Shown here in pieces: positions 17,070 to 52,352 of a DNA stretch of 64,000 nucleotides. The number at the start of each line of letters is the position of its first letter. The stretch's first letter is position 1. A program made the position numbers and the translations under genes. Under the pieces are notes generated by a model. That model saw only the letters and a program-made list of their open reading frames with translations. It had not been told where the DNA came from and ran no database searches. The stretch comes from Zygaena filipendulae (lineage: Eukaryota; Arthropoda; Insecta; Lepidoptera; Zygaenidae), in the NCBI GenBank assembly GCA_907165275.2, contig OU015659.1, positions 1,964,501 through 2,028,500 on the forward strand, in the 5' to 3' direction.

Positions 17070-20000
17070 ACGTCTGTCAAGCTAGAAAGGTCAAGTCGGC
17101 AGAATCAATTGATTTTTAGGTCAAAATTTAGTGCTCAATTAGTGCTAATTTAGTGCTGAAAAAAAAAAATTTGGTGCTGTGATAGGTGGAACAAAAATGA
17201 GAACACTGCTAACTTTTTATTAAGCTAGCAGTGTACCGTTCGTGACCGCGTTACAATACAGTTGCAGCGGAATTCGCATGGGCTAATAATTTAGTGCTCA
17301 ATTAGTGCTGCCATTGTAGCGAAAAATTTTTGAAAAATAATCGTTTTTGAATTTTTTTTCAAATAAAATACTGTACTAGCGACACCGGCCGGTCTAAAGG
17401 CTCAAAAACGGGAACTGATGAAATTGAAACACGTCACCATTTAGCGCTCAATTAGTGCTGCCAGTATAATAAAGAATTTTTGAAAAATAACTTTTTTTTT
17501 TTAATTTTTTTCAATAACTTTTACTTAATTAAGCTAGCAGATTTAGCTAGCAGTGTACCTTTCGTGACCGCGTTATGATACAGTTGCAGCGGAATCCGCA
17601 TGAGCTAATAATTTAGTGCTCAATTAGTGCTGCCATTGTAGCGAAAAATTTTTGAAAAATAATCGTTTTTGAATTTTTTTTTCAAATAAAATACTGTACT
17701 AGCGACACCGACCGGTCTAAGAGCTCAAAAACGGGAACTGATGAAATTGAAACATGTCACCATTTAGCGCTCAATTAGTGCTGCCAGTATAATAAAGAAT
17801 TTTTGAAAAATAACCTTTTTTTTAATTTTTTTCAATAACTTTTACTTAATTAAGCTAGCAGATTTAGCTAGCAGTGTACCTTTCGTGACCGCGTTATGAT
17901 ACAGTTGCAGCGGAATCCGTATGAGCTAATAATTTAGTGCTCAATTAGTGCTGCCATTGTAGCGAAAAATTTTTTAAAAATAATCGTTTTTGAATTTTTT
18001 TTCAAATAAAATACTGTACTAGCGACACCGGCCGGTCTAAGAGCTCAAAAACGGGAACTGATGAAATTGAAACACGTCACCATTTAGCGCTCAATTAGTG
18101 CTGCCAGTATAATAAAGAATTTTTGAAAAATAACCTTTTTTTAAATTTTTTTCAATAACTTTTATTTTATTTGAAAAAAAATCAAAAACGATTATTTTTC
18201 AAAAAATTTTCGCTACAATGGCAACACTAATTGAGCACTAAATTATTAGCTCATGCGGATTCCGCTGCAACGTATTCCGCTGTATCATAACGCGGTTACG
18301 AAAGGTACACTGCTAGCTAAATCTGCTAGCTTAATTAAGTAAAAGTTATTGAAAAAAATTAAAAAAAAAGGTTATTTTTCAAAAATTCTTTATTATACTG
18401 GCAGCACTAATTGAGCGCTAAATGGTGACGTGTTTCAATTTCATCAGTTCCCGTTTTTGAGCTCTTAGACCGGCCGGTGTCGCTAGTACAGTATTTTATT
18501 TGAAAAAAAATTCAAAAACGATTATTTTTCAAAAATTTTTCGCTACAATGGCAGCACTAATTGAGCACTAAATTATTAGCTCATGCGGATTCCGCTGCAA
18601 CTGTATCATAACGCGGTCACGAAAGGTAACACTGCTAGCTAAATCTGCTAGCTTAATTAAGTAAAAGTTATTGAAAAAAATTAAAAAAAAGGTTATTTTT
18701 CAAAAATTCTTTATTATACTGGCAGCACTAATTGAGCGCTAAATGGTGACGTGTTTCAATTTCATCAGTTCCCGTTTTTGAGCTCTTAGACCGGCCGGTG
18801 TCGCTAGTACAGTATTTTATTTGAAAAAAAAATCAAAAACGTTTATTTTTCAAAAATTTTTCGCTACAATGTCAGCACTAATTGAACACTAAATTATTAG
18901 CTCATGCGGATTCCGCTGCAACTGTATCATAACGCGGTCACAAAAGGTACACTGCTAGCTAAATCTGCTAGCTTAATTAAGTAAAAGTTATTGAAAAAAA
19001 TTAAAAAAAAGGTTATTTTTTAAAAATTCTTTATTATACTGGCAGCACTAATTGAGCGCTAAATGGTGACGTGTTTCAATTATCAGTTCCCGTTTTTGAG
19101 CTCTTAGACCGGCCGGTGTCGCTAGTACAGTATTTTATTTGAAAAAAAATTCAAAAACGATTATTTTTCCAAAAATTTTCGCTACAATGGCAGCACTAAT
19201 TGAGCACTAAATTATTAGCTCATGCGGATTCCGCTGCAACTGTATCATAACGCGGTCACGAAAGGTACACTGCTAGCTAAATCTGCTAGCTTAAATAAGT
19301 AAAAGTTATTGAAAAAAATTAAAAAAAGGTTATTTTTCAAAAATTCTTTATTATACTGGCAGCACTAATTGAGCGCTAAATGGTGACGTGTTTCAATTTC
19401 ATCAGTTCCCGTTTTTGAGCTCTTAGACCGGCCGGTGTCGCTAGTACAGTATTTTATTTGAAAAAAAATTCAAAAACGATTATTTTTCAAAAAATTTTCG
19501 CTACAATGGCAGCACTAATTGAGCACTAAATTATTAGCTCATGCGGATTCCGCTGCAACTGTATCATAACGCGGTCACGAAAGGTACACTGCTAGCTAAA
19601 TCTGCTAGCTTAATTAAGTAAAAGTTATTGAAAAAAATTAAAAAAAAGGTTATTTTTTAAAAATTCTTTATCATACTGGCAGCACTAATTGAGCGCTAAA
19701 TGGTGACGTGTTTCAATTATCAGTTCCCGTTTTTGAGCTCTTAGACCGGCCGGTGTCGCTAGTACAGTATTTTATTTGAAAAAAATTCAAAAACGATTAT
19801 TTTTCAAAAAATTTTCGCTACAATGGCAGCACTAATTGAGCACTAAATTATTAGCTCATGCGGATTCCGCTGCAACTGTATCATAACGCGGTCACGAAAG
19901 GTACACTGCTAGCTAAATCTGCTAGCTTAATTAAGTAAAAGTTATTGAAAAAAATTAAAAAAAGGTTATTTTTCAAAAATTATTTATTATACTGGCAGCA

Positions 20001-20385
20001 CTAATTGAGCGCTAAATGGTGACGTGTTTCAATTTCATCAGTTCCCGTTTTTGAGCCCTTAGACCGGCCTGTGTCGCTAGTACAGTATTTTATTTGAAAA
20101 AAAATTCAAAAACGATTATTTTTCAAAAATTTTTCGCTACAATGGCAGCACTAATTGAGCACTAAATTATTAGCCCATGCGAAATCCACTGCAACTGTAT
20201 TGTAACGCGGTCACGAACGGTACACTGCTAGCTTAATAAAAAGTTAGCAGTGTTCTCATTTTTGTTCCACCTATCACAGCACCAAATTTTTTTTTTCAGC
20301 ACTAAATTAGCACTAATTGAGCACTAAACTTTGACCTAAAAATCAATTGATTCTGCCGACTTGACCTTTCTAGCTTGACAGACGT
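17070..20385. mobile_element. 3.3-kb foldback-like element with tandem-repeat arms
   Basis: Ends are ACGTCTGTCAAGCTAGAAAG and its complement, about 230 bases of terminal inverted repeat per side. A perfect 9-bp direct repeat AGGTTTAAC flanks the element (17061-17069 and 20386-20394). Inside, units of about 320 bases containing TTTAGTGCTCAATTAGTGCT run forward for nearly three copies to about 18165, then run inverted for more than six copies to the right end. No coding frame is present. Long arms with tandem units plus a 9-bp duplication match Foldback-type elements; MULE-type elements also make 9-bp duplications. Confidence 0.85.
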
Positions 20386-42188: not shown

Positions 42189-42305
42189 TCAACGCGCCTG
42201 TTGGGCGATTAGCGGCTCGTCCGCGAGCCACATGAACTGGCGGATCTCGTCTTCGGACGAGGGGCAGCAGTGCGGCGGCGCCTGCTGCAGGTACTCGCGC
42301 AACTC
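42189..42305 (-). CDS. cry1: cry1 coding exon 12 (terminal)
   Basis: Thirty-eight residues plus TGA. It carries [15 protein letters not shown] and the FMW tail; the acceptor is TCACCAG. Confidence 0.92.
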   Translation of the reverse strand, partial: ELREYLQQAPPHCCPSSEDEIRQFMWLADEPLIAQQAR

Positions 42306-45300
42306 CTGGTGAAGATATCGGTAATGAATGAAGAAGAAGAAGAACGTACGTACGTGAAGAAGCGACACTACTCCCCCCCACCGACTCAGTGCCTCCCCGC
42401 GCCCCGCTATAACGTAACGGCGAGCCTAGAGGCAAAGAATAAAGATTTTGAGTTTTTTGGCGGTAGTCATATAGATGGCATCATTCGGTCATTTCGGTCA
42501 GTTCATGTCGATAAAAGATTGTTAAAAGAGGATTTTGTTGCGTGCTGCTGGTGCTGTATTAGACAATAATTTTCACAGTGACGGTTTTTAATATGCTGAA
42601 GAAGATATATGACATTTCGAGCTGATTTCTTCGGTTTCCTCCATGAGCTCCGAGAAAGTTCTTGTAGTTTATTCAGTATTTCAGTATCATGGCCTACAAG
42701 TTCAAACCGTACAACGATGCTAAACGCTGATTTGTGCATTTAATTAACTTATAACTTGAAACTGGCTAAATGCATTAAATGCGAAAGTCAATAAGAAGAA
42801 GAAAGAAAGAATAAAGATTATAAAGAAGCAACACTCTCCGCTCCCCACCAATTTCATGCTACCTCATACCCCGCGAAAATGACTTTGATAAAGGCTGAGG
42901 TAAATTTCACCAGGCTGTATCTCATGAACCGTGATAGTTAAGACAGTTGAAATTTTCACAGATGACGTATTTGTGTTGCCGCTATAACAACAAATACTGA
43001 AAAATAGAATAAAATAAATATTTAAGAACAAACGTGTTTTTATTTTTGCCGTTTTTAATTTTTATAAACTTCGTCGGGTTTTTATTATATATTTGCCAGC
43101 TTCCTTATATTTTTGGAATCACAACTTATGGTGCTATAGATCGCAAAATTTCTTGAGTGCATATTGTAAGAAGAAAAAGAAAAAGAAGAAGAGTGACGGG
43201 GCCCACCTTCATGGCGTTCCGGTTGCGCTGCGCGGCGGCCACGTGGTTGACGAGCGGGCCCGGGTACTCCTTGCCGATGACGCAGCGCGCGCGCTCCTGC
43301 ACGTCGATCGGCGCCTTCCACGGCTCGTAGCTGCGGCCGACGCGCACAAACAAACAAACATTTATACAGTCAAGATGAGACGCGACAAAAATGCGTATTA
43401 TACAAACTAAAGTTTGACAGTGAGAAATTAAATAAAAATAGCACTCGCTCTTTGGCTTGTTGTTAGTCGTAAACTCGATTAATCGTTTGAGCATCTGAGC
43501 TCCCCTCTGCGGCGAGCGTCTGAACTTTTCCCCCCGGCGAGCGTCTGAGCTCTCCTCCCCGGCGAGCGTCTGAGCTCTCCTCCCCGGCGAGCGTCTGAGT
43601 TCCCCTCCCCGGCGAACGTCTGAGCTCTCCTCCCCGGCGAGCGTCTGAGCTCTCCTCCCCGGCGAGCGTCTGAGTTCTCCTCCCCGGCGAACGTCTGAGT
43701 TCCCCTCCCCGGCGAACGTCTGAGCTCCCCTCCCCGGCGAATGTCTGAGCTCTCCTCCCCGGCGAGCGTCTGAGTTCCCCTCCCCGGCGAACGTCTAGGC
43801 TCTCCTCACCGGCGAACGTCTGAGCTCTCCTCCCCGGCGAATGTCTGAGCTCTCCTCCCCGGCGAGCGTCTGAGCTCTCCTCCCCGGCGAGCGTCTGAGT
43901 TCCCCTCCCCGGCGAACGTCTGAGCTCTCCTCCCCGGCGAACGTCTGAGCTCCCCTCCCCGGCGAACGTCTGAGCTCTCCTCCCCGGCGAATGTCTGAGG
44001 TCCCCTCCCCGGCGAACGTCTGAGCTCTCCTCCCCGGCGAACGTCTGAGCTCTCCTCCCCGGCGAGCGTCTGAGTTTCCCTCCCTGGCGAACGTCTCAGC
44101 TCTCCTCCCCGGCGAATGTCTGAGGTCCCCTCCCCGGCGAACGTCTGAGCTCTCCTCCACATCGATCGTCTGAGCTCCCCTCCCCCCAGCGAACGTCTCA
44201 GCTCTCCGTCAAACGTCTAAACTTTTCTCCCCGGCGAGCGTCTAAGAGTTCTTCTCCCTGGCGAACGTCTAAGTTCCCCTCCCCGGCCCCCGACGCTAGC
44301 GCCGGGCCACATCTCCATTCTCCACGACGATCGACGCTCGCAGGTCGGGCCACTGAGCAAAATATAATCACTACGTTTTAAGACTCGGCACTTCTATACT
44401 AATCGCTGAACCGATCTATGAAGGCATTTTGTGCCAACCTTTGTATTCCAAAGTTGGCAAAGAAGTTCACGCGTAAATCCACAGTAACTGTTGGTTCAAG
44501 GGAGTGTCACCGGGCGCGGGCGGCTCACATGTACTCGTCGGGCATGCGCGCCAGCTCGGGCACGTAGCGGCGCACGTACTCGCCGCTCGGGTCGAGCCGC
44601 TGGCCGAGGCGCACCGGGCAAGCGCACTCGCCCGAGTCCAGCAGCGCCTCGAACGCGCTCGACGACACCCACATCCAGTTGCCGGCGCACACCGACCTGC
44701 GAACATGCGATATTATGTGTTTTTTTTTTGTCGCGTCGTTAATAGTATATTTCATTACAATGTATGTACAATGAGTTCCGCACGTTTAATGATTTAATAA
44801 TTTAATTGCGTAAAAATTGAAATAAAACAATATGAATTCTGACTTACATGAAAATTTGTTTCTCAGTAATCTTGTATTCTATCAAATCTTCTTCTTTATA
44901 AATAAAAATGAATGTTTGTATGTCTGTCCTCTATGCGTTTCGAAACCATTGGTCCGATTTTGATGAAACTTTGGCGGGTTGTTCTGCCTGCGTCCGCAAA
45001 GGTTCCTGATCCCAAAACTCACGCGGGTGAAACCGCGGGGTACAGCTAGTATTATAGTATAAAATGTTTTTAAACGGTGTTATATCGATATTACCGTCGA
45101 ATATTTACTTATTTATTTATTGGCACAGCAATAACATAGTGTACCTACAATATTAAGTAATAAAAAAACTTGAGAGGTGTCAAGGGACAACCGAATGGAA
45201 CGAAGAAAATATCTGGCTCGCTTTCTTTAAGAGAGAGAGAGAGACAGACAGAGAAACATGCGCACGCCGCACGGCTTACAATAGCTTGTGTCGTTACAAC

Positions 45301-48300
45301 TTTTCGTCTTAATAACCCCCTTTCACAACGCGCAATAAGGAACTTCGTTCCAAAAATTAAATTATTTAAGTCTCGGCGACATACATTGATCGAATTAATT
45401 TTTCCTTCAAACTGGCTAGATGCGTTATATGCGGAAGTTCATAGAAAGAAAGAAAAGAAAAGAAAACTACTATCACTGTTACTGTGAACTCCCTCACGAA
45501 CTGACCAGTCGGCGTCGAGCAGGTACTTGAGGAAGTGCCTGAGGCCGTGCTCCCACGACAGCCAGAGCGCGCCGCGCGTCAGGAACGAGGCCACCGTGTT
45601 GCGCACCACGTGGTGCAGCCAGCCCTCCATGCGCAGCTGCCGCATCGCCGCGTCCACGAACGGGAACCCGGTGCGCCCCTCCTCCCATCTGGCACACACC
45701 ACCACACCACACCACACCACACCACACCATATATCAAAATTCTAATTTAGTCCGTCAGTTAGAAAATAAAAAAACAATAGACACGTATTTTTTGCTCTTT
45801 CAAATAAATTAAAATATATAGAGATAAAGCGCTAAGGTGAGGGGGTCGTGACGTCACTACCCGCTAAAACCGCCATACAAACTGTCAGAATAGTGACATC
45901 ACGCGAAATTTCAACTCAATATATCGCTGTTATTTTTTGATTACGTAAAAAAATAAAAAAATACGTGTCCAATATTTTTTAATAATCTACAAGACGGACT
46001 AAAACATAAAAATTAGTCAACATGCCTATTGGGTATTCTCCAGGGTATGAAAATCAAAATTCTAATTAGTCCGTCGGTTACAAAATAAAAAATAATTAGA
46101 CACGTATTTTTTGCTTTTTCCAATCACAACATAGTATAAAACAAAGCCGCTTTCTCTGTCCCTATATCCCTATGTATGCTTAAATCTTTAAAACTACGCA
46201 ACGGATTTTGATGCGGTTTTCACCAATAGATAGAGTGATTCATGAGGAAGGTTCATAACTATATTTTATCCAAGAATTCCCGCGGGAACTCCGAAATTGA
46301 CGCGGGTGAAACCGCGCGGGTCAGCTAGTTAATGAAAATAAACATAAGACCTAAGGAAAACATGAACAGCTCTTTACCTCTTCAACTCATCCCCTTCGGG
46401 ATTCTTCCACGGTATATCCAGGCATATGGGATTGCCGTCCATCTGTCCGTAGTTGGGGTTGTTCACACTCATAGTGTAGAAGTACTCGCGCCATATCAAC
46501 TGGCCTGAAAAAATGAGGGGGACAGAAGATTGGAACGTGGGTAGATTTTGTACCTGTGAGAAAGAGATGATTGTACGTCACCTGTGATAAATTGTGAGGA
46601 GGGTAGGCGGCCCTGGTGCACTTCACGGAACAAGTCTTGCAGCGCCCAATAAAATCTAAGAAGGGACAATAAATAATACATTTTTTATACTCCAAAGGAG
46701 CCATTCATAAAGTACGTCACACGTTATGGGGGGGGGGGGGTCTAAGTTTTGTGACGTCACATTTCAAAATCTTATAAGACAAATTTAAACTATTAACGAA
46801 AACCTTTAAAATATTTCCAACTCTATCCGTACAGACGTAAGGTGTAAGTTGTTTTGTTGGCGAACTAAGGTTTAAATTGTTTTGTCGGGACTGCTGTTTC
46901 AATTCAATAATTTCTATATCGTCGCTGAAGTTCTAACACCACAAATTCAAATTATGCAACTTTTTAGCAGAGCAAAAAAACCTGTTTCGTTTTGCATCAA
47001 ACAACTATTTAAAGTTGGTTTATTCAATATACGTATTATTAAAATATGTATAATTCATGTAGGCACATTTAAATTTTAAAACAAAATTATTTTCTTGCGA
47101 TTCCCTATCGAATAAAATAAGGAACGTTTTTCGTCAAAATTTGACTTCCGTGGTGTTAGAACTTCAACGACGATATAGAAATTATTGAATTGCAAAATAT
47201 GTGACGTCACACTATGGGGGGGGGTCTCACATATTTGACCAACTATGACAGGGGGGAGGGGTCAAAAATCACTAAATTAATGCGGCGTACTTTATGAATG
47301 ACGCCTAAGGGCGGCGCCACAATCTTTGCGGCGGCGGTGGCGCCAAAAACAAATGGTAGACAACATACGGAGTAGGCCACAGCTCGCGCCGCTGATAACT
47401 GTGGCCAACTTCGTATGTTGTCTATGATTTGTTTATGCCGCCGCCGCCGCCGCAAAGACTGTGGCCAAGGGGTAAGGCACAGAGAGACAGGTAAAGAAAT
47501 AGTCTTACCGTCTAACGGAGAGACACCCGAAGCGGAGGGCGGGACTCAGAGATATAGGCGGCCCGAGCAGGTCTGGGTTGCCGTGTGTTGGCAAGTACGA
47601 GCCTCTGTGATTAGACAAATAGACACACCAGCGATGTAAATTGAATTTTAAGTCAAATAATAATAATGATTAAATTCCTTTGCGTTTTACATGTACGTCG
47701 AGTTTGGGGCGACTATTGGCAAGGTGCAAAGCGGGTGGAGGGAGTAGCCTAAACGATCACAGAGCTCGCTACGGCTAAAATTTACATTTTCGTCGCTGAC
47801 TTGAGCTGTCAAATCCATATTGCAGTGAACATTTTCCAATCGTTTTTGAGATAAATTTAATATGGTCTTAGTAAGATGTGTTATTGTAAATTGTAATAAC
47901 GCCAAGAAGAATAGCGACTAAATTTTACCAATTTCCAAGACCGTGGTGGAAACGAGACAAAAAAATAAGTGGATAATTGCCGTAAGAAAAAAAAGTAAGC
48001 CACAGTAGGCTCATTTTGAATGTTATTGGCAAAATGTTACTGACTACCACCGTCCAAATTTCTCTAATATAGTAAAATAACACAAGATTTCATTATTATT
48101 TTTCACAATATTTACTTACTAGCTGTGCCCCGAGGTTTCACCCGCGGTAATTTCAGAGTTTCCACGGGAATTCCGGGATAAAAAGCACCCTACGTACTTT
48201 TATGTATCCCGGACAACGTGCATGCCAAATTTCATCCAAATCCGTTCTGATGTTTTTGCGTGATTCAGTAACAAACATCCAAACATCCACAATTTCACAT

Positions 48301-51300
48301 TTATAATACATAGTAGGATTCTCGCTTGACTTGAATATTTCCATAATGGCCACCTGTTACGTGGCGCTGTCGTCGCGCACGGTCCCAACACTGTTGGTTG
48401 GGACTATTGATGTGTTATTTACAAAATGGTTTTTAAAATCGGTCATTATTCATTTTGTGTGTATTCGTATTTTTTGGGGTGTATTATTGTAATCAAACAA
48501 TGATCAACCTCTTAGTAAACATTATTTATACACCTAAGGGATAAGAGGGTATCAGTATAATATTATATTACTAGCTGTGCCCCGCGGTTTCACCCGCGTG
48601 AATTTCGGAGTTCCCGCGAGAATTCTGAGATAAAAAGTACTCTATGTCCTTCTCTGTACCCCTGACGACCTGTATGCAAAATTTCGTGATGATCGGTTGA
48701 GCCGTTGAGGCGTGAAAGCGTAACAGACAGACAGACAGTTACTTTCGCATTTATAATATTAGCAGGGATTTAAAAATAAATCAAAATACTTTTATTCGAC
48801 TATAGAGTGTATTTTTGACGCCGGTGAATGCAGATCGAATTGAACCTTAATTTTGATCGTAATAGAGTTTATAATCACCTGCGGAAAGTCTCTTGTTCGA
48901 CCGCCAGGCGGTGCTGCATTTGTTTGAGGGCGGTCGTCTCGCCGCCGACCCAGCGTATCATGCGAATGTCTTCGTTCTCCAAGTACACGCCCAGGTCTTC
49001 GGGCTTCGGAGTCTGTTTGCAAAAAAACATCATGAACAATTCCTTAAAAACTGATTAGTGATACACAATTGCAAAACCATAAAATCAATAAGCTCGTTTA
49101 TGGTCCTAAGAGTTTTAGATTGACACGGATAAAAAGTTTGAAAATTTGGTCCTTCGATCCGGATTTACACGAATGCATACCGCAAATAATGGTCCCGATT
49201 TTGGTGAAGGTGTGAAAATGGTCTCCAAAACATTAAAAGTTGTTTTATTATACCTTGTCGAAAACGGTGAACTCTTGATAGAAGCACTCCGGCAGCGTCC
49301 CGAACACCACCCCGCGCAAGTCCACGTCGCCGACTGGGCGCGGCGGGTCGCCAATGGTCGCGACAGTATGCTGTAATATATAACCTGATATGACCTTTAC
49401 AGATTTCAGCACACGCAATGCGTTTAACAAAAGCCAGAAATAGTAAAGGGGAACATTGTGAAATATACAACGTGTTAATGAATTAACTGAAAACCTGATA
49501 CACCCCATCTAAAAAAATAAACAATAATATGATTAAAATATATTTTAAATATATTTTTATATATACTTTAAAAGTTATTCAACATAAGTTTGGAGGGGAC
49601 TTATCTACGAAATTCCAAGCGCTACGCTCTCGCCTACCGGTTCGAATTTTTGTGCTGCGGGCGGCGTACGCGTGAAATATTGTATTATACATAATTTAGA
49701 CATGGGCGTGTGAAAATGAAAAAATATAACCTATATTAAAACATAGTGCGATCGATTCGCTAGTCGATTCTGAACAAACTACTTTCTAGTTTTCAGTTAA
49801 TTCATTAACACGTTGTATATGCTAACGAGGAACATCTGGTAGGTGAGCGGGGGGATGCCCCCGTTCGCGCGGATGACGGTGTCCGGCTCCCACAGCGTGT
49901 GCGCCACGTGCTCGCGGCGGTATACTTGACGAGATATACTAACGAGGAACATCTGGTAGGTGAGCGGGGGGATGCCCCCGTTCGCGCGGATGACGGTGTC
50001 CGGCTCCCACAGCGTGTGCGCCACGTGCTCGCGGCGGTATACTTGACGAGATATACTAACGAGGAACATCTGGTAGGTGAGCGGGGGGATGCCCCCGTTC
50101 GCGCGGATGACGGTGTCCGGCTCCCACAGCGTGTGCGCCACGTGCTCGCGGCGGTATACTTGACGAGATATACTAACGAGGAACATCTGGTAGGTGAGCG
50201 GGGGGATGCCCCCGTTCGCGCGGATGACGGTGTCCGGCTCCCACAGCGTGTGCGCCACGTGCTCGCGGCACGCGACGCCGATCTCGCGGCGGTATACTTG
50301 GCGAGATATACTAACGAGGAACATCTGGTAGGTGAGCGGGGGGATGCCCCCGTTCGCGCGGATGACGGTGTCCGGCTCCCACAGCGTGTGCGCCACGTGC
50401 TCGCGGCACGCGACGCCGATCTCGCGGCGGTATACTTGGCGAGATATACTAACGAGGAACATCTGGTAGGTGAGCGGGGGGATGCCCCCGTTCGCGCGGA
50501 TGACGGTGTCCGGCTCCCACAGCGTGTGCGCCACGTGCTCGCGGCACGCGACGCCGATCTCGCGGCGGTATACTTGGCGAGATATACTAACGAGGAACAT
50601 CTGGTAGGTGAGCGGGGGGATGCCCCCGTTCGCGCGGATGACGGTGTCCGGCTCCCACAGCGTGTGCGCCACGTGCTCGCGGCACGCGACGCCGATCTCG
50701 CGGCACGCGCGCCGCACGCTGTCGTCGCGCGCGCGCCACACCGGCTCGCAGTCCTGCTCGAAGCACAGCTTGCGGATGCCTGCCGGATATATTTAAAATT
50801 TCACCCGCGATAATTTCGGAGTTTCCGCAAGAATTCCGGATTACAATATAGCCTATGTTACTCAGGAATAATGTAGCTTTCTAATGGTGAAAGAATTTAT
50901 GAAATCAATTCAGTAGTTTTTGAGTTAAATCGTAACAAACAAACAAAAAATCAAATCTTTCCTCTTTATAATATTGGTATAGATTTAATCATATCGAAAT
51001 GAAAGCCACAAAGCGTGCGTGAGCACCGCGTAGTTGCGTTCGCGCCGAAACGTATTAGGCTAGCTGTTTCCACCTCACTGAAATAAGCGCGAGTGAAATT
51101 TTATTGTAGAGAACAGCTAGTAATCCTAACTAATATTATAAATGCGAAAGTACACTGTGTGTCTGTTACGCTTTCACGCCTTAACGGCTCAGCCGATTAT
51201 CATATAATTTTGCATTCACGTTGTCAGGGGTACAGAGAAGGACATAGGGTACTTTTTATCTCGGAATCCCGCGCGATATAGCTAATAAATAAAATAAAAG

Positions 51301-52352
51301 TAAATAGAGACAGGGACACCACTCACCGAACTCCTCCCACAGGCGGCGGAATACGAGGTCGGGTTTTCCTTTTAGCATGATCAGCCGACCGCCGTGCCGC
51401 TTGAACTGGCTGTCCAGGTCGTCTAGGGCTTCCAGCAGGTACCGCATACGGTTGTAGCCGACCACTTTAGTTCCTGAAAATACATAATTACCGGATTTAT
51501 GCAGTGATATACCGCCTACCCGCTAATCGCGAGATTTCGGGTTCGATTCCCGATGGAAGCGGACTTTGTGTGGTGAACACGGGGTTACACTTTACAGTCT
51601 GGGCATGCGTTCTATACTATAATATAGTGTATGTATGTAATATTTTAGTAAATAGTCAATACTATACAGGATTTTACAGAAAGGTGTAGTCATATTTGAC
51701 GATTGTGCTCACGTTATCATCTGCAATGGTTTGACACAAGTAACGGAACCAGTAGGTACGATAAAATAAACTACCCTAAAAACAAGATTTTTCTTTAACA
51801 ACTTGTCTGTAATAAACCTAAACGGTGATAAATTGCATTAAACGGTCTTGAACCCGTCACCTGTAACCAATTTATGACCTACCTAGTGATGTAACATGTG
51901 TATTTTCTTGCAGAAACAGGCGTTGAAAGTATTTTTTTCCATTTTAAAATTATAAAGTAAGGTTTTTGGGCTAAATACCATGCTCAAAATATTGTATAAG
52001 ATTACGATCTCGAGATATGACTACACTATTCTGTAACATGTGTAAACTTGGTTTCCACGACACAAGCTTATTGTTAGTGTAGGATTAAGTACCTAGATCT
52101 GTGCGTTGTGAAGTGTAATTGTTATTACAATCGTTTCCGCGGGAACTCGGAAATTCACGCGGGTGAGACCGCGGGGAAAAGCTAGTATCTAAAGAATATA
52201 AAACTGCAATAAAAACACTGACCCGCAGTCTCTCCGTCGAAAATGAACACGGGGAAGAAGGGCACGCTCCGATCCTCCAGGGCGGCCTGCAGCGACGGGT
52301 TGTCGTGCAGACGCAGCCCGTGCCGGAACCACAGCACGCTGCCGCTCAACAT
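42189..52352 (-). CDS. cry1: Cryptochrome 1, insect light-sensing type (twelve coding exons)
   Basis: Flavoprotein blue-light receptor of the circadian clock. In Drosophila the light-activated form binds TIMELESS and triggers its breakdown. The exons (listed separately) splice in phase to 534 residues, normal for insect CRY1. An N-terminal photolyase-like alpha/beta domain begins [15 protein letters not shown], and the FAD-binding helical domain covers roughly residues 200-480. Counting against Drosophila CRY with a constant offset of 14, the FAD-proximal Cys is C402 (in SVCAGNW), the electron-transfer Trp residues are W406, W383, W328 and W380, and the conserved His is H364. The C-terminal tail carries FMW (520-522) where Drosophila has FFW. 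All splice sites are GT-AG. I chose ATG 52352 (MLSGSVLWF) because it opens directly into the conserved domain; an acceptor-like AACAG just upstream suggests a 5' non-coding exon. The oddity is a tandem duplication of the exon 3 end inside intron 3. Exons are GC-rich against AT-rich repeat-laden introns. The gene looks intact. Confidence 0.95.
42900..43083 (+). mobile_element. Fragment of the same SINE-like repeat in cry1 intron 11
   Basis: CACCAGGCTGTATCTCATGA, GACAGTTGAAATTTTCACAG and AACTTCGTCGGGTTT match 56253-56560 without its 5' end. Confidence 0.65.
43207..43330 (-). CDS. cry1: cry1 coding exon 11
   Basis: Encodes [16 protein letters not shown] to RNRNAMK. The acceptor is CCGCAG and the donor GTGGGC. 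Confidence 0.93.
43500..44290. repeat. 25-bp minisatellite in cry1 intron 10, about 31 copies
   Basis: The unit is GGCGAGCGTCTGAGCTCTCC plus TCCCC, with point variants (AACGTC, AATGTC, GTTCCCC). Three units make 75 bases, so long open frames with a 25-residue period arise on the minus strand; these are not genes. Confidence 0.95.
44342..44510 (-). repeat. Repeat copy next to cry1 exon 10
   Basis: Matches 60064-60262 in inverted orientation: GCGATTAGTATGGAAGTGCC, TTGGCACAAAATGC, and ACTCCCTTGAA near one end. Confidence 0.6.
44529..44696 (-). CDS. cry1: cry1 coding exon 10
   Basis: Encodes [16 protein letters not shown], including C402 and W406, through RMPDEY. The donor is GTGAGC. Confidence 0.95.
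44887..45049 (+). mobile_element. Helitron copy in cry1 intron 9
   Basis: TCTTCTTTATAAATAAAAAT to GGTACAGCTAG, with CCTGATCCCAAAACTCACGC inside. Confidence 0.7.
45506..45688 (-). CDS. cry1: cry1 coding exon 9
   Basis: Encodes [18 protein letters not shown] and LWLSWEHGL, with H364, W380 and W383. The donor GTCAGT splits Trp399. Confidence 0.95.
45700..45730. repeat. ACCAC microsatellite beside cry1 exon 9
   Basis: Six ACCAC-type units begin about a dozen bases into intron 8, next to the exon 9 acceptor, where they could affect the polypyrimidine tract. Confidence 0.85.
45736..46020. mobile_element. MITE with TTAGTCCGT ends, in cry1 intron 8
   Basis: The left end TTAGTCCGTCAGTTAGAAAA and right end ACGGACTAAAACATAAAAAT are imperfect inverted repeats. 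The interior has GTGACGTCACTA and AAATACGTGT. A partial further copy follows at 46050-46125. Confidence 0.75.
46130..46328 (+). mobile_element. Helitron copy in cry1 intron 8
   Basis: Ends ACGCGGGTGAAACCGCGCGG then GTCAGCTAG, only 50 bases before exon 8. Confidence 0.68.
46378..46504 (-). CDS. cry1: cry1 coding exon 8
   Basis: Encodes [16 protein letters not shown] and carries W328 of the electron-transfer chain. It is separated from exon 7 by a 77-base intron; the donor is GTAAAG. Confidence 0.94.
46582..46655 (-). CDS. cry1: cry1 coding exon 7
   Basis: Seventy-four bases encoding [15 protein letters not shown] to SSQFIT. The acceptor is TTCTTAG and the donor GTGACG. Confidence 0.92.
46699..47305. 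mobile_element. TIR element with a nested hairpin in cry1 intron 6
   Basis: The ends AGCCATTCATAAAGTACGTC and the complement of GGCGTACTTTATGAATGACG frame it. Inside, 46895-46960 and 47147-47195 form a second inverted pair (GTTCTAACACCAC). Runs of G occur at 46729 and 47217. Confidence 0.75.
47307..47470. mobile_element. GC-rich palindromic MITE in cry1 intron 6
   Basis: The left arm CACAATCTTTGCGGCGGCGG pairs with the right arm CCGCCGCCGCAAAGACTGTG. Inside, TAGACAACATACG also pairs with CGTATGTTGTCTA. Confidence 0.75.
47509..47604 (-). CDS. cry1: cry1 coding exon 6
   Basis: Short exon of 96 bases encoding [13 protein letters not shown] to LRFGCLSVR, part of the FAD-contacting region. The acceptor is ATCACAG and the donor GTAAGA. 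Confidence 0.92.
47862..48060 (+). pseudogene. THAP-domain relic in cry1 intron 5
   Basis: The frame from ATG 47862 gives [13 protein letters not shown], the C-x4-C start of a THAP zinc finger, then stops. The next frame gives [13 protein letters not shown], and the first frame resumes as KWIIAVRKK, the usual THAP order (C..C, F.FP, WI.A..R). Two frameshifts and a stop make it dead. THAP fingers occur in P-element transposases and in host proteins; the source here is unknown. Confidence 0.6.
48119..48318 (-). mobile_element. Helitron copy in cry1 intron 5
   Basis: CTAGCTGTGCCCCGAGGTTT to ATACATAGTAGGA. Confidence 0.75.
48571..48768 (-). mobile_element. Helitron copy in cry1 intron 5
   Basis: CTAGCTGTGCCCCGCGGTTT to TAATATTAGCAGGGA; one of the best preserved. 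Confidence 0.78.
48879..49012 (-). CDS. cry1: cry1 coding exon 5
   Basis: Encodes [19 protein letters not shown], then [12 protein letters not shown] and EQETFR. The donor GTGATT splits Arg239. Confidence 0.93.
49254..49370 (-). CDS. cry1: cry1 coding exon 4
   Basis: Thirty-nine codons from [10 protein letters not shown] to FTVFDK, phase 0 at both ends. The acceptor is TTACAG and the donor GTATAA. Confidence 0.92.
49466..49817. mobile_element. MITE with long TIR, abutting the cry1 array
   Basis: The terminal inverted repeat TACAACGTGTTAATGAATTA is followed by ACTGAAAAC, with the complement at the right end. A TA lies outside each end. A second copy is at 34837-35186. It sits in cry1 intron 3 and cuts off the distal repeat unit. 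Confidence 0.8.
49822..50704 (-). repeat. Seven-copy in-frame tandem array of the cry1 exon 3 end
   Basis: The motif CTAACGAGG (complement of the exon 3/donor junction) recurs at 49822, 49939, 50056, 50173, 50311, 50449 and 50587. Spacing is therefore 117, 117, 117, 138, 138 and 138 bases. Each unit holds the codons [13 protein letters not shown] to TYQMFL plus 30 bases of intron reading [10 protein letters not shown]. Long units also carry EIGVACR (21 bases). Copies look near-identical. Exon 3 proper uses the first copy; the other six lie in intron 3. The minus-strand frame stays open from 50741 to 49797 and closes inside a MITE. Confidence 0.95.
50592..50779 (-). CDS. cry1: cry1 coding exon 3
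   Basis: The acceptor CCGGCAG precedes [14 protein letters not shown]. The first available donor (GTTAGT, right after TYQMFL) gives exactly 62 codons and joins to [10 protein letters not shown] of exon 4, as expected for CRY1. Six further in-frame copies of its 3' part lie downstream on the minus strand. Confidence 0.9.
50799..50982 (-). mobile_element. Helitron copy in cry1 intron 2
   Basis: TTTCACCCGCGATAATTTCG to TTTATAATATTGGTATAGA, starting 20 bases from exon 3; CTAG is lost. Confidence 0.68.
51059..51119. mobile_element. Two head-to-head Helitron 3' fragments
   Basis: GCTAGCTGTTTCC at the left and GAACAGCTAG at the right face each other within 60 bases. Confidence 0.45.
51124..51285 (+). 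mobile_element. Helitron copy in cry1 intron 2
   Basis: TCCTAACTAATATTATAAAT to GATATAGCTAA, beginning just after the previous fragment's CTAG. Confidence 0.7.
51327..51473 (-). CDS. cry1: cry1 coding exon 2
   Basis: The acceptor TTTTCAG completes Gly44. The exon encodes [17 protein letters not shown] through LWEEF; the donor is GTGAGT. Confidence 0.93.
51500..51690 (+). mobile_element. tRNA-derived SINE fragment in cry1 intron 1
   Basis: A pol III B box GGTTCGATTCC lies at 51539-51549, preceded by ACCGCCTACCCGCTAATCGC. No matching A box or cloverleaf is seen, so it is not a tRNA gene. Confidence 0.5.
52130..52185 (+). mobile_element. Helitron 3' fragment in cry1 intron 1
   Basis: TTCACGCGGGTGAGACCGCG then GGGAAAAGCTAG. 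Confidence 0.6.
52223..52352 (-). CDS. cry1: cry1 coding exon 1
   Basis: Encodes residues 1-43, the first strand and helix of the photolyase domain and FIFDGETA. The donor is GTCAGT. Confidence 0.92.

Follow-up and report, generated by a model that had tools for sequence, protein, structure and literature searches.

The cry1 gene of the burnet moth Zygaena filipendulae raises the question of how seven consecutive copies of the same exon end, each with its own splice donor, came to stand in one photoreceptor gene, and which of them would be used to produce CRY1. The gene lies on the minus strand of a 64,000-nucleotide (nt) stretch of contig OU015659.1 (positions 1,964,501–2,028,500 of the forward strand, assembly GCA_907165275.2), hereafter the window, to which the coordinates below refer unless another locus is named. 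A slash in a sequence marks the end of the exon.

The exon 3 array and the cry1 gene

In the window, exon 3 of cry1 is followed by six head-to-tail units, all of which lie in the following intron and which together form an array of approximately 0.8 kb.

50592..50779, minus strand: native exon 3, 188 nt, ending in CTC/GTTAGT; joined to exon 4 it gives the conserved TYQMFL-HTV
50454..50591, minus strand: tandem unit 1, 138 nt, a 25-nt segment followed by an exact 113-nt copy of the end of exon 3
50316..50453, minus strand: tandem unit 2, 138 nt
50178..50315, minus strand: tandem unit 3, 138 nt
50061..50177, minus strand: tandem unit 4, 117 nt, without 21 nt between two CCGCGAG repeats and with a CGTCAAG variant
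49944..50060, minus strand: tandem unit 5, 117 nt
49827..49943, minus strand: tandem unit 6, 117 nt, followed by GTTAGC
49371..49826, minus strand: rest of intron 3 behind the last copy, with the acceptor ATTACAG before exon 4 at 49370

Every unit consists of a 25-nt segment starting with GTTAGT, followed by 113 or 92 nt that match the end of exon 3 exactly. Across the six units, the exon-derived sequence amounts to 615 nt and does not contain a single difference, synonymous sites included. The 117-nt unit corresponds to the 138-nt unit minus the 21 nt between the exon's CCGCGAG repeats, with one additional C-to-T change in the 25-nt segment, and the two types are sorted, three units of 138 nt being followed by three of 117 nt. 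Adjacent head-to-tail copies that hold both exon and splice-site sequence are the arrangement expected of a tandem duplication across an exon–intron boundary. Tandem Repeats Finder (TRF) reported the array in two overlapping rows with scores of 1085 and 1113 (threshold 50), and a genome search with the array DNA, which passes over very common words, returned two matches, both of which were the cry1 locus itself.

The original prediction, made from the letters of the window, had described seven in-frame exon 3 ends, units of 117 and 138 nt, and the donor GTTAGT in six copies and GTTAGC in the last. These features were recovered at 50592, 50454, 50316, 50178, 50061, 49944 and 49827, with three units of each size and with the junctions CTC/GTTAGT at six exon ends and CTC/GTTAGC at the last. 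The seven positions hold as last exon bases; as donor coordinates, which is how they had been presented, they require a shift, because each GT starts one base lower. The repeated part outside the exon had been taken for the first 30 bases of the intron; it comprises 25 nt (the 30 being these 25 plus exon codons) and differs from the intron that follows the last copy. The count of seven exon-end donors also stands, and a second GT, CAA/GTATAC, which is present in every 25-nt segment and in frame by sequence, had been missed. The candidate donors therefore total 13 (seven exon ends and six CAA/GTATAC), and use of CAA/GTATAC would add six residues (VSISRQ) in frame.

The gene that carries the array was reconstructed by locating its exon ends.

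42189..52352, minus strand: cry1 coding region, 12 coding exons, 534 amino acids (aa)
52352-52223, 51473-51327, 50779-50592, 49370-49254, 49012-48879, 47604-47509, minus strand: coding exons 1 to 6
46655-46582, 46504-46378, 45688-45506, 44696-44529, 43330-43207, 42305-42189, minus strand: coding exons 7 to 12

The spliced translation is open and has one terminal stop, and outside the array neither a stop nor a frame break was observed in the remaining coding sequence; the start codon is a predicted one, and additional 5′ exons are possible. The spliced protein contains both PF00875 (5–165) and PF03441 (296–497). Its top matches, among those listed, were lepidopteran CRY1 proteins, its identity to the near-full-length ones was 77–85%, and its best PDB matches were Cryptochrome-1 chains. 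Judged by its two domains and by its closest relatives, the gene is an insect type 1 cryptochrome gene (cry1), in agreement with the identity first proposed. In a CRY1 tree of 22 sequences, some of them partial, the protein had no well-supported neighbour. Other photolyase-family loci in the genome are distinct from cry1: PF03441 was found on contigs C3 and C6, and PF00875 on C2, C3 and C6.

Two further repeats were observed in cry1. Intron 10 consists mostly, at 43494-44287, of a GC-rich 25-bp minisatellite of approximately 32 copies, which constitutes a second tandem array in the gene. At the 3′ end of intron 8 (45689-45730), a GGTGT pentamer repeat replaces the polypyrimidine tract before the acceptor of exon 9.

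Reading frame and predicted forms of CRY1

When each of the seven exon ends was spliced to exon 4 (49370), all seven products were in frame with one terminal stop, and their predicted lengths were 534, 580, 626, 672, 711, 750 and 789 aa, so that the earlier arithmetic of 0 to 6 extra blocks of 39 or 46 residues was right. We compared this with simulated random unit ends, of which 33.5% gave multiples of three and 19% gave a multiple of three that was also open; the additional in-frame step of 21 nt would somewhat reduce the latter figure. A second reading frame is likewise open throughout the array, which suggests that a high GC content accounts in part for the openness. Considering both the chance expectation and the second open frame, the open frame is weak evidence for function, and selection for the frame, which need not be invoked, was rejected as evidence. 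Retention of the intron past the array would add nine codons after the last exon end and then reach an in-frame stop at the tenth.

The consequence of the added blocks for the protein was assessed from an alignment of 25 CRY1 sequences and the structural model of Pectinophora CRY1 (built on a 25-row alignment; mean predicted local distance difference test score [pLDDT] 80.7). F154, L155, H156, T157 and V158 are at least 90% conserved, and the junction FL/HTV is nearly invariant. Added blocks would enter between L155 and H156, inside helix 151–161, where the photolyase domain (5–165 in the window's protein) ends. On this model, inserted blocks of 39–46 aa would probably harm folding. The fold predicted for the exon 3 read-through by itself, from a single sequence, showed repeated strands at a mean pLDDT of 59.4 and was treated as meaningless; six extra Pfam families reported on the read-through (FANCI_S1 and others), in which no stretch passed alone, were treated as repeat artefacts.

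Donor choice, history of the copies and rival explanations

The first donor produces an exon of 188 nt and the later ones produce exons of 326–953 nt, the other 11 coding segments being 74–183 nt long. Long exons are generally disfavoured in splicing. Because the first donor gives the shortest exon, and the only one of ordinary length, we infer that this donor is favoured, a dominance that would follow from exon length and order and not from donor strength, since all the donors are weak and six of the seven are equal.

We consider it likely that the array arose by expansion of an exon end together with its donor, that this expansion is neutral and was homogenised recently, and that splicing is mostly canonical. 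A stretch comprising the 3′ end of exon 3, the donor and a short segment resembling intron would have been duplicated into intron 3, and the copies would have multiplied to six through unequal exchange or slippage. A 21-nt deletion between the two CCGCGAG repeats probably produced the shorter unit, which would have multiplied also, and recent amplification or homogenisation would keep the copies identical. The first donor would splice most of the pre-mRNA to give normal CRY1, the array being removed as intron, and leaky use of later donors would yield in-frame CRY1 with 39–46-aa blocks inside helix 151–161. Such lengthened forms would probably be poorly functional, and their presence at a low level alongside normal CRY1 is possible. 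We favour this explanation because the first donor gives the shortest exon, the insertion would fall in a nearly invariant stretch of a helix, and retention of the frame has a chance of approximately one in five. The underlying process, tandem duplication across an exon–intron boundary, is known; the copy number and the form of a donor array are unusual.

Several observations weigh against neutral expansion. Both unit types (138 and 117 nt) preserve the frame. Donor strength was estimated as duplex energy with the 5′ end of U1, a crude measure in which pseudouridine is ignored, and by this estimate, among the 11 donors of cry1, that of exon 3, CTC/GTTAGT, pairs most weakly (−1.5 kcal/mol, against −4.5 to −9.1 for the others). 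The six GTTAGT donors (the first and five further copies) are equal in U1 pairing, the last donor, GTTAGC, reaches −0.7 kcal/mol, and CAA/GTATAC pairs better in each unit (−4.0). Every unit also contains a pyrimidine-rich YAG (16 of 20 pyrimidines), a possible acceptor, so that splicing into the array copies is conceivable via these sites. The remaining point concerns the 25-nt segment: when the intron flanks were joined by script across an element inserted behind the array, only 17 of 25 positions matched the segment. Simple duplication of the present intron does not appear to explain this segment.

49464..49819, minus strand: element resembling a miniature inverted-repeat transposable element (MITE), with TA at both ends; its start lies 8 bases past the final copy of the exon end

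Past the final unit, the intron consists of GTTAGCATA, the MITE and TTTCACAATG, in that order. It has only its first ten bases in common with the 25-nt segment (9 of 10 matching) before the MITE begins; the part to the right of the MITE matched the segment at 9 of 16 positions (shuffle p 0.019). The intron part carried in the units thus differs from the original intron sequence that borders the final unit. Equality would be expected only after a recent simple duplication, and the mismatch therefore weighs more on the history of the array than on the type of event. No match of at least 10 nt that could represent a template for the segment was found outside the array in the window. The MITE, a high-copy element in this genome, has a 32-bp perfect inverted repeat at its ends (arms 49463-49494 and 49789-49820). 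A genome search with it gave 2827 candidates, of which 40 were scored; all were near full length, and 39 lay elsewhere, at 91–93% identity. Compared with the majority of 12 copies, the intron 3 MITE differs in 24 of 352 columns and the other copies in 3–14, which makes the intron 3 MITE look old, whereas the exon copies are identical. We lean weakly toward a history in which the initial duplication is older than the MITE and the units were later homogenised while the intron at the edge was not. A recent duplication that brought in a 25-nt segment from some other source also fits.

Of the three possibilities raised originally (neutral intronic expansion, a source of variant photoreceptors or an assembly error), the evidence leans to the first and neither supports nor refutes the second. 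A functional ladder of donors, which would produce regulated length variants of CRY1 or provide decoys that tune the amount of normal CRY1, agrees with seven exon ends and six extra CAA/GTATAC sites all in frame, with the weakness of the first donor and with the intact state of the rest of the gene. We nevertheless regard it as improbable: frame retention would arise by chance in approximately 19% of cases, the insert would split a conserved helix, the exon 3 repeat occurred in 0 of the 131 relatives scanned (see below), and the identity of the copies at synonymous sites as well argues for recent copying and not for selection on the protein. The weak donors throughout the array, together with the stop that intron retention would encounter, could instead make this a partial loss-of-function allele, in which the array reduces normal splicing of the already weak donor and leads either to retained intron that soon meets a stop or to long proteins that misfold. 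This too seems unlikely, given that the rest of cry1 contains no stop or frame break and that the weakness of the exon 3 donor may be ancestral.

Tandem arrays can be mis-sized, and an assembly or haplotype-merging error would imply a true locus with one copy or with some other number. The array of approximately 0.8 kb lies, however, in a 12.8-Mb contig (C10) of a 366-Mb assembly in 56 contigs, which would imply long reads spanning it, and the two unit types, which can be told apart, stand in separate blocks of three; on both grounds we consider such an error unlikely.

Other arrays in the genome, parallels in relatives and known systems

Other tandem arrays in the Z. filipendulae genome were sampled in 20 regularly spaced 10-kb stretches of contigs C1–C5 (200 kb of 366 Mb). 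This sample gave ten TRF rows with a period of at least 40, and in the two that were examined no other exon-end array was found, a result that bounds their frequency little. One of them (L012:2250-2597) has a GTAAGC-like motif, but stops interrupt it and it has no coding frame; the other (L029:7719-8013) is a two-copy in-frame duplication within a 927-aa frame and not at a donor. That frame (L029:6768-9551) is rich in T, S and N, the in-frame duplication being of 150 nt (2.0 copies, 98%). No TRF array was found in 10 kb around a photolyase-family gene on C3 (L008), a partial check in that the gene extends beyond L008. Family searches were rejected as a means of finding exon-end arrays, as the positive control, PF00875, returns the whole cry1 array as one match. 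On C6, an uninterrupted 474-aa frame (L001:727-2148) matches both photolyase domains, so that most of this photolyase-family gene may lack introns. Elsewhere in the window (17219-20237), a satellite of approximately 320 bp forms two head-to-head blocks (3.0 and 6.5 copies, 96% match), the second consensus being the reverse complement of the first.

Relatives were scanned for repeated 7-mers in 131 proteins listed from searches with the normal and the longest CRY1 forms; the search with the longest form had 262 matches, and the scan covered all of the 120 listed. The exon 3 array was not found in any of the 131 relatives, and internal repeats of other kinds were observed in three, from Phthorimaea operculella, Stylophora and Nucella. 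The Stylophora model (1381 aa) has repeats spread over the whole protein, as in fused copies. The predicted cryptochrome of the snail Nucella lapillus (P0124) carries approximately four 20-aa repeats (PHIAPSSVEEVRTFIWMDN) near the C-terminus, a tandem copy of a cryptochrome segment at the tail. Among the first 120 proteins scanned, that of P. operculella alone had a repeat.

The P. operculella CRY1 gene model (P0001, 704 aa) carries another cry1 exon end (...LLDADW) in six copies, an end that corresponds to the end of exon 9 in the window's cry1. The copies are spaced by 43, 45, 32, 32 and 32 residues, i.e., longer ones first and then three identical shorter ones. It shares with the array described here its occurrence in a moth cry1, the sixfold tandem presence of the 3′ end of an exon, the mixture of longer and shorter units and, as modelled, the preserved frame; it differs in that a different exon is involved, the copies have partly diverged and the case is known as a predicted protein only. 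A search with its array region returned its own protein at 705 bits and the next at 301, and no second array of this kind stood out among the 120 listed of 2664 matches. A similar but separate array in this model suggests that exon-end expansion in cry1 may recur in moths, with the reservation that the P. operculella case is a gene prediction. If the parallel is confirmed, the Z. filipendulae array becomes more interesting. Surveying cry1 introns across Lepidoptera could reveal how exon ends begin to expand and whether the outcome is tolerated or put to use. A bolder proposal, to which we assign very little credence, is that moth cry1 is a repeated target of expansion at exon 3′ ends and that the copy number of in-frame decoy donors acts as a splicing rheostat; were it true, the number of decoy donors would determine how much CRY1 is normal and how much is lengthened, and hence the light sensitivity of the clock.

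Judging from search results, nothing on cry1 exon arrays in Lepidoptera was found in the literature, and the closest known systems come from other genes. In the RNA-dependent RNA polymerase (RdRp) gene of potato, an intron was gained by tandem duplication across an exon–intron boundary (PMC4974935). According to the passages concerned, that duplication likewise copied exon sequence together with native splice signals; in cry1, by contrast, an exon 3′ end and its donor were copied six times and a new intron is not evident. Fission yeast genes carrying multiple 24-bp exonic AGGT duplications (Zhu & Niu 2013, as described in PMC4974935) share with cry1 the presence of several tandem in-gene copies with splice-site dinucleotides, but the yeast units were exonic and became intron, whereas those of cry1 consist of an exon end and a donor inside an existing intron. 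Introns have also arisen from tandem duplication in Drosophila (PMC2891723), where exon duplication likewise supplied insect genes with splice sites, new or alternative; those introns originated inside coding exons, through duplication of proto-splice sites, and the passages in question describe no donor array. As described in these sources, the boundary-crossing and exonic duplications compared mostly involve few copies. With its six units, the donor array in an otherwise intact circadian photoreceptor gene provides a natural setting in which to test how the spliceosome selects one of several identical donors as the exon lengthens, and whether such arrays differ in copy number between individuals.
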